Shown: one piece after another, positions 14,092-36,170 of the stretch
Layout: each line of letters opens with the position of its first letter
Position numbering within the stretch: the first letter of the stretch is position 1
DNA from: Prevotella sp.
GTDB taxonomy: Bacteria > Bacteroidota > Bacteroidia > Bacteroidales > Bacteroidaceae
Direction of reading: 5' to 3'
Assembly: GCA_017960525.1 (NCBI GenBank)
Contig: JAGCZA010000096.1
Coordinates: 1-36,170 of the forward strand
Length of the DNA: 36,170 nucleotides
Notes under the pieces: model-generated
The model's database searches: none
Seen by the model: only the letters and a program-made list of their open reading frames with translations
What the model was told of the DNA's origin: nothing
Made by a program: the position numbers and the translations under genes

Positions 14092-14173
14092 GCCCAGATG
14101 GCGGAATCGGTAGACGCGCTGGTCTCAAACACCAGTGGGGAAACCCGTGCCGGTTCGACCCCGGCTCTGGGTA
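14092..14173 (+). tRNA. tRNA-Leu (anticodon CAA)
   Basis: A class II tRNA of 82 nt. The acceptor arms are GCCCAGA and TCTGGGT (first pair G-U) with discriminator A. The anticodon stem CTGGT/ACCAG closes the loop CTCAAAC, giving anticodon CAA for UUG codons. A long variable arm is present (GGG-AAA-CCC), and the T arm is GCCGG-TTCGACC-CCGGC. The 3' CCA is not encoded. It has its own promoter and is followed by an 11-13-bp hairpin. Confidence 0.93.
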
Positions 14174-32990: not shown

Positions 32991-33028
32991 CAACAAAAGA
33001 GGTCTTCACACGAAGACCTCTTTTGTTG
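32991..33028. terminator. Strong hairpin after the LruC gene
   Basis: A perfect 17-bp stem (32991-33007 with 33012-33028; core AAAAGAGGTCTTC) with a 4-nt loop ACAC. The TTTTGTTG tail on the 3' arm and the A-rich 5' arm would let it act on both strands. It insulates the restriction-modification region from the LruC gene. Confidence 0.85.
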
Positions 33029-33110
33029 AAGATAAAATACTAGTTTCCATACTAATTTGCCACCCAAATACTATTTTTTATACATCTTTTTAATAATATA
33101 GTGCCGATTT

Positions 33111-33132
33111 ACAAATAAAATTTGTACTTTTG
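33111..33132 (+). promoter_or_regulatory. Promoter of the structured RNA / mod leader
   Basis: TACTTTTG (33125-33132) matches the -7 consensus. No TTTG lies at the -33 distance, but an inverted repeat ACAAAT-AAA-ATTTGT (33111-33125) abuts and overlaps the -7 box by one base, as an operator would. The expected transcript start is near 33137-33139. Confidence 0.55.
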
Positions 33133-33136
33133 CAGA

Positions 33137-33499
33137 TGCATTGTGGCGTTAACTGAACTCTGACGGGAGGGAGGGCTGCGATGCACGAATTTTTGCTGGA
33201 TAAAGAAAGTCGTGTCATAATGACTGAGGTTTAAAAGTTGAATGTTGGCGCATGAAACGAAATGAAACCTCGGGCAGGGATGCGCCGTTATGGCGTACCC
33301 TTTTCCGAACGTTCTCATTTCAGGGTTCGCGCCAACTACCCAACTTTTAGGACTATTAGGGATTGGGTACCCTTTTCGTGTCTGGCAGTTTGGTAACTAA
33401 GAACAGATAACTGACATTAGATTTTAAAAGTTGGCGCTTTATGAAGAATCTAAAACAACGGTCTGTCTCTCTGAGTCGTACCCTTAAACGAGTGCGGCT
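33137..33499 (+). ncRNA. Candidate structured RNA or long leader upstream of mod
   Basis: A 363-bp gene-free stretch between a promoter and mod with several consistent pairings. P1: 33137-33144 with 33178-33185 (8 pairs, two G-U), beginning where transcription should start. P2: TAAAAGTTG (33232-33240) with CAACTTTTA (33341-33349), and GTTGGCGC (33244-33251) with GCGCCAAC (33329-33336). Inside this, GAAATGA (33259-33265) pairs with TCATTTC (33315-33321), and there is a hairpin 33281-33297. A hairpin TAGATT/AATCTA spans 33418-33452. A second copy of the 5' arm (TAAAAGTTGGCGC, 33425-33437) could compete for the same partner. It does not match tmRNA, RNase P RNA or 6S RNA as I know them. Whether it is an independent RNA or the mod leader is open. 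Confidence 0.45.
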
Positions 33500-35560
33500 A
33501 TGAGTAGGCATATAGACAAAGCTGAATTGATCAGCAAGTTGCAGACCTTGAAGGGCCTGACCAATGACGAGCGTAGTAGCCTTATCGGTCTATTGCGTGA
33601 GCATAAAAAGTATGGGCTGGTGTGGGAAGATAAACCAGAGGACGTTGAAGAACGGCTGCGAGACTCACTGCCTGTTCTCCGTGAAGTAAAGGAAAAGCGT
33701 ATCGTAGGCGTTCAGCCGGATTTGCAATCCGGCTGCACTGAACATAAGGATTTGCAATCCGAAAGGGGCATTACAAATGCTGATATTCACAGCGAGCGGA
33801 TTACAAATCCGCTCGAACAGCCCATTCCAAACCATATTTTGATTGAGGGTGACAACCTCGAGGCTCTTACAGCCTTGAGTTATACCCACGAGGGGAGAAT
33901 AGATGTTATCTACATCGATCCTCCTTATAATACAGGCAACAAAGACTTTGTCTATAACGATTCGTTTGTAGATACAGAGGACAGCTATCGACACTCCAAA
34001 TGGCTCTCGTTTATGAACAAACGCCTAAGGATCGCCAAGAAGTTGCTATCGGATAAAGGTGTTATCTTTATCTCGATTGATGATAATGAGCAAGCAAACT
34101 TGAAGCTGTTGTGCGATGAAGTGCTTGGGTACGACCACTATGTTGCTTGCGTTTCATGGCAACGAACCTATTCAACAAGAAACGATTCAAAAGGAATACC
34201 CAAAGAAGTTGAATCTATCCTTGTGTATAGCAAGCAAGATACTTGGACCCCTAAAAAGCTTACACGTACAGACAAGATGAATGCTCTTTACAAAAGTCCC
34301 GACAATGACCCCAAGCCTTGGACAAGCAGTTCTGTTTCTGCACCAGGTGCTACAACCCACCAAGGAATGGTTTACGCCATTCAACATCCATATACAGGAG
34401 AAATGATGTATCCAACAGTTGGGCGGTGTTGGAGTTTAGGCCAAGAATATATGTTGGAAAACCTCAATCAATGGTGCGCATATAAATTGGAAGATTTGCA
34501 TGACGAAAAAGAGCGTGCAAATATTTGTGGGCTTGCAGTGACTGATGTTCGTGCCAACGTGCAGGGAATCGTTCTCGCCGAACCTTTATCAGCGTCTCGT
34601 TCTAAAGTTCTTTCTATTTTGAATAGAGGGAATTGGCCATACTTTTATTTTACGAATGGTGGAAAAGGTGGTCTTCGCAGAAAGACGTATCTTGACAACA
34701 TGGAAGGAAGGGTCGTAACTAACTATTTTCCTTACGATGAATGTGGCCATACGGATGAGGCAAAAAAGGAGTTGATGTCAATGCTTAATGGCAAGTCACC
34801 CTTTGATACCCCCAAACCTGTGAGGCTGATAAAAAGAATTCTTCAAATCGCCTGTGATACCGACTCCATCATCTTGGACTTCTTCGCCGGCTCTGGTACC
34901 ACTCTCCACGCTACGATGCAACTAAACGCCGAGGACGGAGGCCACAGACAATGTATCCTTGTGACGAACAACGAGAATAACATCTGCGAGGAAGTGACCT
35001 ACGAACGTAACAAGCGAGTGATAGAGGGCTACACCACTCCGAAAGGCGTAAAAGTGGAAGGGCTGAAGGCCAACACGCTTCGCTACTACAAGACGGACTA
35101 CATCTCTCGCGACCGCACACAGAAGAACATGAGGGATTTGGTGGCAGCCGCCACAGACCTGCTGTGCATCAAGGAAGATTTGTATGAAGAGCAGAAGACA
35201 TTCGGACGGTTTAAGTTAAAGCCTCGACTTGCTCGCTATTTCAACAACGGTCGGAAGCACATGATGATTATCTATCGCGAAGAGCTGATAGATGAGATTG
35301 CTGAAGAAATCAAGCAGTTGAACTTTGACGGTAAGCGCCTGAAAATCTATGTATTCTCCCCTGGCCGCTATGCCTTTAACGATAACTTCCGCGAAGTGGA
35401 GGACAAAGTGGAACTGGTAGCTCTGCCTGCAGCCATCTACGATGCCTATCAGAAGGTATTGCCAAAGCGCAGAGAAAAGCTATTGGAGTCTGAGATTGCA
35501 AATCCCCTCCAACAAGAAACAAAAATCCCCACCGATCTATTCGAGGGGCAAGGAGAATAA
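33500..35560 (+). CDS. mod: Type III restriction-modification DNA methyltransferase (Mod)
   Basis: A 686-residue adenine-N6 methyltransferase, the DNA-recognition and modification subunit of a type III system. The catalytic motif IDPPYNTGN (DPPY at 140-143) precedes the SAM-binding DFFAGSGTT (460-468), the beta-class order. The region between (about 180-440) should carry the target-recognition domain and is where base composition is most AT-rich. Residues 72-106 (VQPDLQSGC to ERITNP) are encoded by a cluster of REP-like palindromes, in frame and without a stop. The Mod core resumes at NHILIEGDNLEALTAL. The expected partner res starts at 36121, but a toxin-antitoxin pair lies between them. Confidence 0.9.
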   Translation: MSRHIDKAELISKLQTLKGLTNDERSSLIGLLREHKKYGLVWEDKPEDVEERLRDSLPVLREVKEKRIVGVQPDLQSGCTEHKDLQSERGITNADIHSERITNPLEQPIPNHILIEGDNLEALTALSYTHEGRIDVIYIDPPYNTGNKDFVYNDSFVDTEDSYRHSKWLSFMNKRLRIAKKLLSDKGVIFISIDDNEQANLKLLCDEVLGYDHYVACVSWQRTYSTRNDSKGIPKEVESILVYSKQDTWTPKKLTRTDKMNALYKSPDNDPKPWTSSSVSAPGATTHQGMVYAIQHPYTGEMMYPTVGRCWSLGQEYMLENLNQWCAYKLEDLHDEKERANICGLAVTDVRANVQGIVLAEPLSASRSKVLSILNRGNWPYFYFTNGGKGGLRRKTYLDNMEGRVVTNYFPYDECGHTDEAKKELMSMLNGKSPFDTPKPVRLIKRILQIACDTDSIILDFFAGSGTTLHATMQLNAEDGGHRQCILVTNNENNICEEVTYERNKRVIEGYTTPKGVKVEGLKANTLRYYKTDYISRDRTQKNMRDLVAAATDLLCIKEDLYEEQKTFGRFKLKPRLARYFNNGRKHMMIIYREELIDEIAEEIKQLNFDGKRLKIYVFSPGRYAFNDNFREVEDKVELVALPAAIYDAYQKVLPKRREKLLESEIANPLQQETKIPTDLFEGQGE
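33713..33815. repeat. Mirror-symmetric cluster of four REP-like palindromes inside mod
   Basis: Cores: GGATTTGCAATCC at 33718-33730 and 33748-33760, GCATTACAAATGC at 33768-33780, GGATTACAAATCC at 33798-33810. The first and last extend to 10-bp stems (33713-33735, 33793-33815). Loops are TGC, TGC, ACA, ACA, and core spacing is 30 bp on both sides, so the cluster is symmetric about 33764 like a REPIN. It is translated in frame as mod residues 72-106. Confidence 0.85.
35493..35510. repeat. Single REP-like core near the 3' end of mod
   Basis: AGATTGCAAATCCCCTCC resembles the last core of the 33713-33815 cluster and its flank (GGATTACAAATCCGCTCG), and the following AACAA matches AACAG. In protein it gives EIANPLQQ, parallel to RITNPLEQ at the cluster, suggesting a second, decayed insertion of the same family. 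Confidence 0.55.
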
Positions 35561-35562
35561 GC

Positions 35563-35832
35563 TTACTTGGAATAATGGAAACGCATCGAAAGAACATAAA
35601 CATAAATCATCCCATTACTGACAGAATACACCAAGCGGTGCTCGTCGGTAATGCGGCGACTCCACACTCCGTGCAAGTCACCCTTCAAAGGTTCTGGCTT
35701 TCCTATGCCTGTGAAAGGATGCAAGAGGATGTCGTCAAGCAACTTCGTTATGCGTTTCATAATGCGCTTGTTGCCTGTAGATTTCCAATAGGCAAGATCT
35801 TCTTCTGCCTGCGGCATGAGCTTTACTTCCAT
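35563..35832 (-). CDS. yoeB: YoeB-family mRNA interferase toxin
   Basis: An 89-residue RelE/YoeB-type toxin that cleaves mRNA on the ribosome when free of its antitoxin. The family body is nearly complete: EEDLAYWKSTGNKRIMKRI, the GKPEPLKGDLHGVWSRRI segment with the catalytic Glu and Arg, TDEHRLVYSV, and the C-terminal FHY with the catalytic His. Its start overlaps the antitoxin gene by 10 bp. The 3' end converges on mod with a 2-bp gap, so no terminator separates them and the messages can be antisense to each other. Confidence 0.93.
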   Translation of the reverse strand: MEVKLMPQAEEDLAYWKSTGNKRIMKRITKLLDDILLHPFTGIGKPEPLKGDLHGVWSRRITDEHRLVYSVSNGMIYVYVLSMRFHYSK

Positions 35833-36062
35833 AGGTCTTCAACTTTTACGACACGCCCACGCCCCTCTTCAATATCCTTCTGGCCTTGTCGTATAATCTC
35901 GACCATCTTGGGCGAGGACATAATGTACTCGGTCTCGTCCATAGCCTGCTTCTGTGCTGTCAATTTCTTGAGATACTTCACGGCCTTCTTCATCAGGCCT
36001 TCATCCTCGGCAATAATACTCAATTCACGGAACAACTCCGCATTCATCTGTAGTGCTGTCAT
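35823..36062 (-). CDS. Antitoxin partner of YoeB
   Basis: A 79-residue antitoxin, the first gene of the pair. The N-terminal half is helical (NAELFRELSIIAEDEGLMKK); the C-terminal half (MSSPKMVEIIRQGQKDIEEG and VVKVEDLWK) resembles the toxin-wrapping tails of antitoxins paired with Txe/YoeB in Bacteroidota. It should neutralise the toxin and, with it, repress the shared promoter. ATG 36062 is used; MNAELF five codons later is an alternative start. Confidence 0.85.
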   Translation of the reverse strand: MTALQMNAELFRELSIIAEDEGLMKKAVKYLKKLTAQKQAMDETEYIMSSPKMVEIIRQGQKDIEEGRGRVVKVEDLWK

Positions 36063-36120: not shown

Positions 36121-36170
36121 ATGAAAGAAATAATATACCAACAAAAGTATGTGCGAAAGTTAGTGGATGA
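36121..36170 (+). CDS. res: Start of the type III restriction subunit (Res), cut by window edge
   Basis: Sixteen complete codons are visible (MKEIIYQQKYVRKLVD). This N-terminus resembles type III Res helicase-endonuclease subunits, and the position after mod on the same strand fits. Res would provide DEAD-box ATPase/translocation and the nuclease. No perfect promoter is seen in the 58 bp before the ATG; TAAATTTTG at 36095-36103 has one base too many to be a consensus -7 box. The assignment rests mostly on context. Confidence 0.6.
   Translation, partial: MKEIIYQQKYVRKLVD

Follow-up and report, generated by a model that had tools for sequence, protein, structure and literature searches.

The locus and its leader

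The window analyzed here is a stretch of 36,170 nucleotides (nt) of Prevotella sp. DNA (assembly GCA_017960525.1, contig JAGCZA010000096.1, forward strand), near the end of which lies mod, a methyltransferase gene of the type III restriction-modification (RM) kind. Judged from its sequence, the region directly ahead of mod, 33137 to 33499, is a structured leader RNA that spans the distance from a Bacteroidota-type promoter to the gene. It is framed by the following features.

33125-33132, + strand: -7 promoter box TACTTTTG, Bacteroidota type; the transcript would start at about 33137-33140
33137-33185, + strand: P0, a 5' hairpin (33137-33147 with 33175-33185), its first base five after the -7 box
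33441-33503, + strand: 20-codon leader open reading frame (ORF) MKNLKQRSVSLSRTLKRVRL, with an ATGA overlap with mod
33500-35560, + strand: mod, type III methyltransferase gene (686 amino acids; PADLOC MTase_III, 3.7e-94; Pfam N6_N4_Mtase, 7.1e-36)

The TACTTTTG box is one that we take to be of the Bacteroidota -7 form. The 363-nt strand gave a fold energy of -123.1 kcal/mol against a mean of -98.3 (standard deviation, 4.5) for shuffled sequences (z = -5.46), and 0 of 100 shuffles were as stable. An earlier note on this DNA had proposed an undescribed structured RNA ahead of mod, with a paired 5' end at the expected start and several further stems. P0 occupies that position; its sequence differs from locus to locus. 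The further stems are preserved by compensatory changes among the homologues described below. The same note erred in calling the stretch ORF-free, since the leader ORF lies within it, and the stretch is not strongly GC-rich either (core G+C content, 48%). It had also placed a terminator upstream. A perfect 17-bp inverted repeat upstream of the leader (32991-33007 with 33012-33028) may be the site that was meant, although a simple scan for terminators picked up no such site between 32950 and 33520.

Homologues found through the RNA

Of 398 genomes of the genus searched with blastn, 62 had matches, mostly short pieces of the promoter region, with about ten covering the RNA. The alignment of nine copies had 24 consensus pairs, and at 13 of these at least one sequence had both bases changed. 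A covariance model built on the core of this alignment (R1) matched 53 of the 398 genomes at E ≤0.001. The ten strongest matches (>120 bits) were all of the window type, eight of them before an intact mod, one (L046) without mod, and one (L049) at a contig end; the remaining matches, at 37 to 66 bits, had the same layout with other genes downstream. The window's own genome held a second copy, before an MmeI-like methylase. Scanning the named genome collection with a DNA pattern of the hairpin yielded 83 stretches, assigned to Prevotella, Prevotellaceae, Bacteroidaceae, Muribaculaceae, Alloprevotella, Bacteroidales, or Bacteroidia, and one to an uncultured bacterium. For the pattern match L178, the true copy is on the opposite strand; the match was left out of the alignments and entered the gene survey in that orientation.

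A second model (R2), built from 36 nonredundant copies, had matches in 28 of 251 genomes at the family level (9 of 30 genera), in 2 of 295 at the order level, and in 2 of 395 at the phylum level, each count including the own genome. Because the large model searches score few candidates per genome, these counts are lower bounds: the second copy in the own genome was missed by the R1 search, and a further copy, before the mod of genome G034, was found with R2 after being missed in the larger searches. The position of the element was conserved between promoter and start codon. The motif TAnnTTTG occurred upstream of 101 of 103 distinct testable copies, compared with 14 of 103 in a same-sized background window 1 kb further up, and among the distinct copies the start codon lay mostly 25 to 60 nt past the core.

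Searched with Rfam 15 at the gathering threshold, the whole window returned only a tRNA at 14092-14173. Over 33100-33520, with E values up to 10, there were three chance-level matches far below gathering, and 10 other family members gave no match on the element. Covariation and Rfam were both checks that the earlier note had named, and neither refuted its proposal: the covariation was strong, and no Rfam class was matched.

Two alternative folds

Pairing was assessed with a swap test, which asks whether the two strands of one copy form a duplex of lower energy than strands swapped among copies do (36 nonredundant copies, 5,000 permutations each). Two alternative folds were well supported by this covariation. 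The first, S1, would be a single long hairpin made of preA:postB, A:B, P4, X:Y, and D:E. The second, S2, would consist of a 5' hairpin (P2':X1 and a weaker G1:D, with A in the loop) and a 3' hairpin (E-Y:Z-F, with B in the loop, followed by a U-rich tract). Their positions in the window are as follows.

33224-33232, + strand: strand P2', partner of X1 (33265-33273) in S2 (P2':X1, z = -10.65, 0/5,000 permutations)
33232-33240, + strand: strand preA, partner of postB (33341-33349) in S1 (z = -18.19, 0/5,000)
33244-33251, + strand: segment A, GTTGGCGC, partner of B (A:B, z = -11.34, 0/5,000)
33259-33321, + strand: helix P4 of S1 (33259-33265 with 33315-33321; z = -14.62, 0/5,000)
33265-33273, + strand: strand X, partner of P2' in S2 (P2':X1) or of Y in S1 (X2:Y, z = -5.38)
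33277-33300, + strand: D:E hairpin, the most conserved part (D, 33277-33286; E, 33292-33300; z = -7.65)
33301-33309, + strand: strand Y, partner of X in S1 or of Z in S2
33323-33326 and 33338-33341, + strand: short hairpin arms around B, GGGT and ACCC (z = -3.91)
33329-33336, + strand: segment B, GCGCCAAC, partner of A or C
33341-33349, + strand: strand postB, partner of preA
33355-33382, + strand: candidate intrinsic terminator E-Y:Z-F of S2 (Z, 33355-33364; F, 33365-33372; U-rich tail, 33373-33382; E:F, z = -5.80; joined EY:ZF, z = -12.05)

The helices of S1 scored from z = -18.2 for preA:postB to -5.4 for X2:Y, and those of S2 from -12.1 for EY:ZF to -3.8 for G1:D, with Y:Z at -10.8; a local hairpin, P1, scored -5.5. 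Five control pairings gave values of -0.13 to +1.39. In an independent count of S1 on alignment A4, 85.1% of cells were paired, compared with 72.3 for shuffled and 39 to 48 for slid versions, and the covariation score was 0.425 against 0.211. The two-part long-range helix drawn in the earlier note, 33232-33240 with 33341-33349 and 33244-33251 with 33329-33336, was recovered as preA:postB and A:B.

The two sets of helices compete, since D:E and X:Y of S1 share E and Y with E:F and Y:Z of S2, and all of them covary. S1 and S2 would be mutually exclusive as whole folds because Y:Z and P2':X1 would have to span the full S1 stem through linkers of a few nucleotides. Short arms flanking A, able to form a small hairpin, also covaried (z = -7.31), as did those around B when the windows were set on B. 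With these arms, S2 would present A and B in the loops of two hairpins. The U-rich tract after F contained 6 to 8 U in 9 nt in all 36 copies. The sequence thus offers both parts of an attenuator, namely a stem tailed by a U tract upstream of the gene and a putative competing antiterminator that shares its strands.

A first test of the B arms (z = -1.28) was set aside, as its windows were badly placed, and the pairing PA5:PB3 (z = -5.45), which overlaps A:B, was not valid as a control for the B arms. RNAalifold had proposed a closing helix in which F pairs with the 5' element GTATC (G1); it was dropped after a swap-test z of -0.03.

A four-codon ORF, ATGACTGAGGTTTAA, was also seen at 33220-33234 in the window, just 5' of A. 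The sequence ATGACTGAG was conserved among the window-type copies; the same bases also belong to the P2' helix.

A third segment beside the start codon

Two further features lie between the U-rich tract and mod.

33417-33453, + strand: P6 hairpin (33417-33423 with 33447-33453), holding C and the leader start codon; read from the sequence and seen by eye at other loci too
33429-33437, + strand: segment C, AGTTGGCGC, a copy of A, complementary to B (B:downstream, z = -7.90, 0/5,000)

B paired better with the sequence that separates F from the gene in its own locus than with that of foreign loci, giving the z value above; a control with A gave -0.96. As counted by eye, C lay within a few nucleotides of an AUG in 19 of the 36 nonredundant copies, the window's included, and was missing from the other 17. 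A, B, and C varied in concert: GTTGGCGC was the form of the window type, AACTGGCC that of L004 and L050, GTCGACCAA that of L006, L009, and L013, and CAATCTTCC that of L197. A complementary segment that stands beside the AUG and covaries with B is consistent with translational repression by start-codon pairing.

In all eight intact window-type loci, this AUG opened the leader ORF, whose TGA overlapped the mod ATG (ATGA), although the ORF varied in length from 20 to 32 codons. At the MmeI-like loci, C sits before the start of the methylase itself. At L046/L038 (G228:C20), a window-type RNA was found with C and the leader ORF intact and no mod; the leader frame there continues into a long unrelated ORF.

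Genes behind the RNA

The 164 entries merged into 126 distinct copies, of which 11 had too little downstream sequence, leaving 115 readable. The first gene belonged to an RM or related defense family in 103 of these, corresponding to 45 of 54 clusters at 90% identity.

Methylases: D12 methylase of DpnII type, 52; MmeI-like methylase, 14; type III mod, 14; IIG, 4; C5 methylase, 1
Other defense markers: BrxP, 7; HKD-SNF2, 5; HmaA, 2; SspB, 2; DrmD, 1; PAPS-reductase, 1

Five genes were assigned by eye (two broken D12, two broken SNF2, and the PAPS-reductase) and the rest by blastp to one reference each. The references or their duplicates were identified by hidden Markov model, with a modest Pfam score for the MmeI-like reference (29.4 against a cut-off of 27). 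BrxP, DrmD, HmaA, and SspB count as marker genes only and not as whole BREX, DISARM, Hma, or Ssp systems. Because the copies were found by their RNA and not by the gene, the link to defense was not built into the search. On these sequence comparisons, it is close to certain that a conserved RNA lies in the leader of defense genes. The link did not hold in reverse, as only 3 of 7 mod genes in 60 genomes of the genus carried the RNA.

The other 12 first genes were a sulfatase in seven cases, an unassigned gene with a weak mad8-like neighbor in two, and those of L046, L114, and L153. Loci with a sulfatase domain (Pfam PF00884 in L145) were L133, L145, L160, L186, L217, L218, L220, and L221, some of which may be one place in two collections. 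The leader of the sulfatase loci starts with M-x-x-NL, as it does at the IIG loci L185 and L149.

Proposed mechanism

Among the roles suggested in the earlier note, a separate defense element was not supported, and cis-regulation of mod appeared to be the best reading. The mod leader is probably a member of an undescribed family of bistable RNAs that would act in cis as an attenuator with a translational back-up. S2 would be the OFF state, in which the 3' hairpin would stop transcription ahead of the gene, and S1 the ON state, in which the long hairpin would prevent termination. Through the complementarity of loops A and B, the two hairpins would be able to turn into the long one. In the window and in about half of the copies, C could capture B when A does not, and would thereby block translation of the read-through mRNA. 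For the window type, the blocked start codon would be that of the leader ORF, with mod coupled to it via the ATGA overlap. The balance between S1 and S2 may be moved by the speed of elongation or by a protein, a ligand, or a second RNA.

The same two folds would also serve a metabolite riboswitch, in which a ligand bound at the 5' part or at an internal loop picks between them. Exclusive folds and a terminator-like arm are the usual riboswitch layout, and a conserved, apparently unpaired GACATTGTGGGT-like motif was seen by eye ahead of P1 in many copies. Few core columns outside the helices are invariant, however, and the short arms around A and B account for several of the conserved internal-loop bases. 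There was no single metabolic theme among the first genes, and no Rfam riboswitch matched: over the element in the window and in 10 family members, no known aptamer core was found, the S-adenosylmethionine (SAM) class included. A riboswitch therefore seems unlikely. Nothing found here supports SAM as a ligand, because the first genes include nonmethylases (BrxP/PAPS-reductase, SspB, and SNF2 helicases) and the wider class described below leads other genes.

Alternatively, the transcript might mostly end at the U tract and release a 230-nt RNA with B exposed, acting in trans, for example on the C of a read-through mRNA. Such a free small RNA would have its own promoter and its own terminator-like end, B is complementary to C beside the start codon, and the variation of A and B between copies would keep the copies apart. 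Against this, most copies are tightly spaced to the start codon and the link to the following gene is constant, both of which favor action in cis, and C is missing from 17 of 36 copies. We regard a role in trans as improbable.

In computed energies, S1 was more stable than S2 in all 36 copies, by 2.9 to 22.2 kcal/mol with loop-loop pairing not counted. This would suit a static fold, S1 alone serving as a stable 5' hairpin that protects the mRNA or sets translation, with the S2 pairings as by-products of repeats. Yet P2':X1 and Y:Z covary independently of S1, and do so again in the wider class, and given the short linkers they could not coexist with the full S1 stem, so a static fold is very unlikely. 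A DNA element marking defense cassettes (a recombination or integration site, or a cruciform) would account for the near-palindromic layout and the unrelated genes behind it and is hardly credible, given the frequent G-U pairs within the covarying stems, the promoter directed through the element, the constant start-codon spacing, and the lack of any match to phage or plasmid records (blastn with the window copy) or in two pattern scans of viral contigs (0 matches).

A wider class

Weak R2 matches outside the defense set had the same layout before other genes. With a model built on nine such loci (R3), matches were obtained in 30 of 99 genomes from the order and in 5 of 99 from the phylum, counting the own genome. 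There were 25 copies in genome G654, many of them on short contigs, and four in the own genome. The genes behind 36 R3 loci were read by eye; most had the appearance of encoding secreted proteins, and some did not.

The architecture was retained in 44 wider-class sequences, where the swap test gave z values of -23.3 for P4, -21.8 for preA:postB, -14.1 for Y:Z, -13.9 for A:B, -10.3 for D:E, -9.5 for E:F, and -9.2 for P2:X1, against +0.64, +0.25, -0.86, and -2.05 (the last with 42/2,000) for controls. X1:Y was not supported in the wider class (z = -1.13). R3 recovered 9 of 11 defense-type loci at E ≤0.03, but neither the window copy L043 nor L042; another window-type copy was found at 29.7 bits. 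On these results, the defense-linked copies probably form one subfamily within a larger class of the same architecture, with the window type at the far end of the subfamily. In 10 + 20 wider-class loci, no Rfam match fell on the element itself.

One wider-class copy, L243 (G716:C34), precedes an ORF that looks, by eye, like an EcoRI-type methylase. Rfam matches were seen near two others, to DUF805 at L262:1406-1474 on the minus strand, about 26 nt after the wider-class copy, and to DUF805b at L237:4288-4322.

More tentatively, the leader RNAs of Bacteroidota may include a very large undescribed bistable class, with up to 25 copies per genome and private complementary loop pairs. One branch might provide common control of RM, BREX-, DISARM-, Hma-, and Ssp-type operons, so that one cellular condition, read by RNA folding, would switch many DNA-modification defenses together. 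Members of the family lead many unrelated defense operons, and therefore one signal may set several. The timing of expression of self-toxic defenses is poorly known, and the regulators so far are mostly system specific; a single RNA leader before at least 11 kinds of defense first gene would amount to a general control layer. The wider class would add a large regulatory RNA family to a major gut and soil phylum.

Comparison with known systems

RM genes are regulated by C proteins, antisense RNA, promoter methylation, or start-site hairpins (PMC12707154). The element would resemble these in controlling the expression of RM genes, partly at translation start, whereas one structured leader common to many unrelated RM and defense families was not found in the part of that source consulted. 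Nor was the element described in the consulted parts of the same article or of PMC8040213, PMC2864571, PMC9723704, and PMC7366714; the 2017 list of 224 candidate RNAs lay outside this comparison. The Rfam motifs Flavo-1 (RF01705), Bacteroidales-1 (RF01693), DUF805 (RF03081), and DUF805b (RF02914) are likewise structured intergenic RNAs of the same phylum, and the element itself matched none of them.

Transcription attenuators and terminator-type riboswitch platforms have two competing hairpins before the first gene of an operon, one of which is a terminator followed by U residues. The leader shares this layout, but here the antiterminator would be one very long hairpin built from both smaller ones, whose loops are complementary. 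Conversion of a kissing-loop complex to an extended duplex is known from RNAI/RNAII of ColE1. There, too, two hairpins with complementary loops can convert to a full duplex, whereas the two hairpins of the leader belong to a single molecule, and their conversion would decide between termination and read-through.

Downstream of mod, an ORF that starts at 36122 and runs past the end of the window is probably res. Between the two, the minus strand at 35563-36060 carries two small ORFs, which look by eye like a toxin-antitoxin pair of the YoeB/YefM type.
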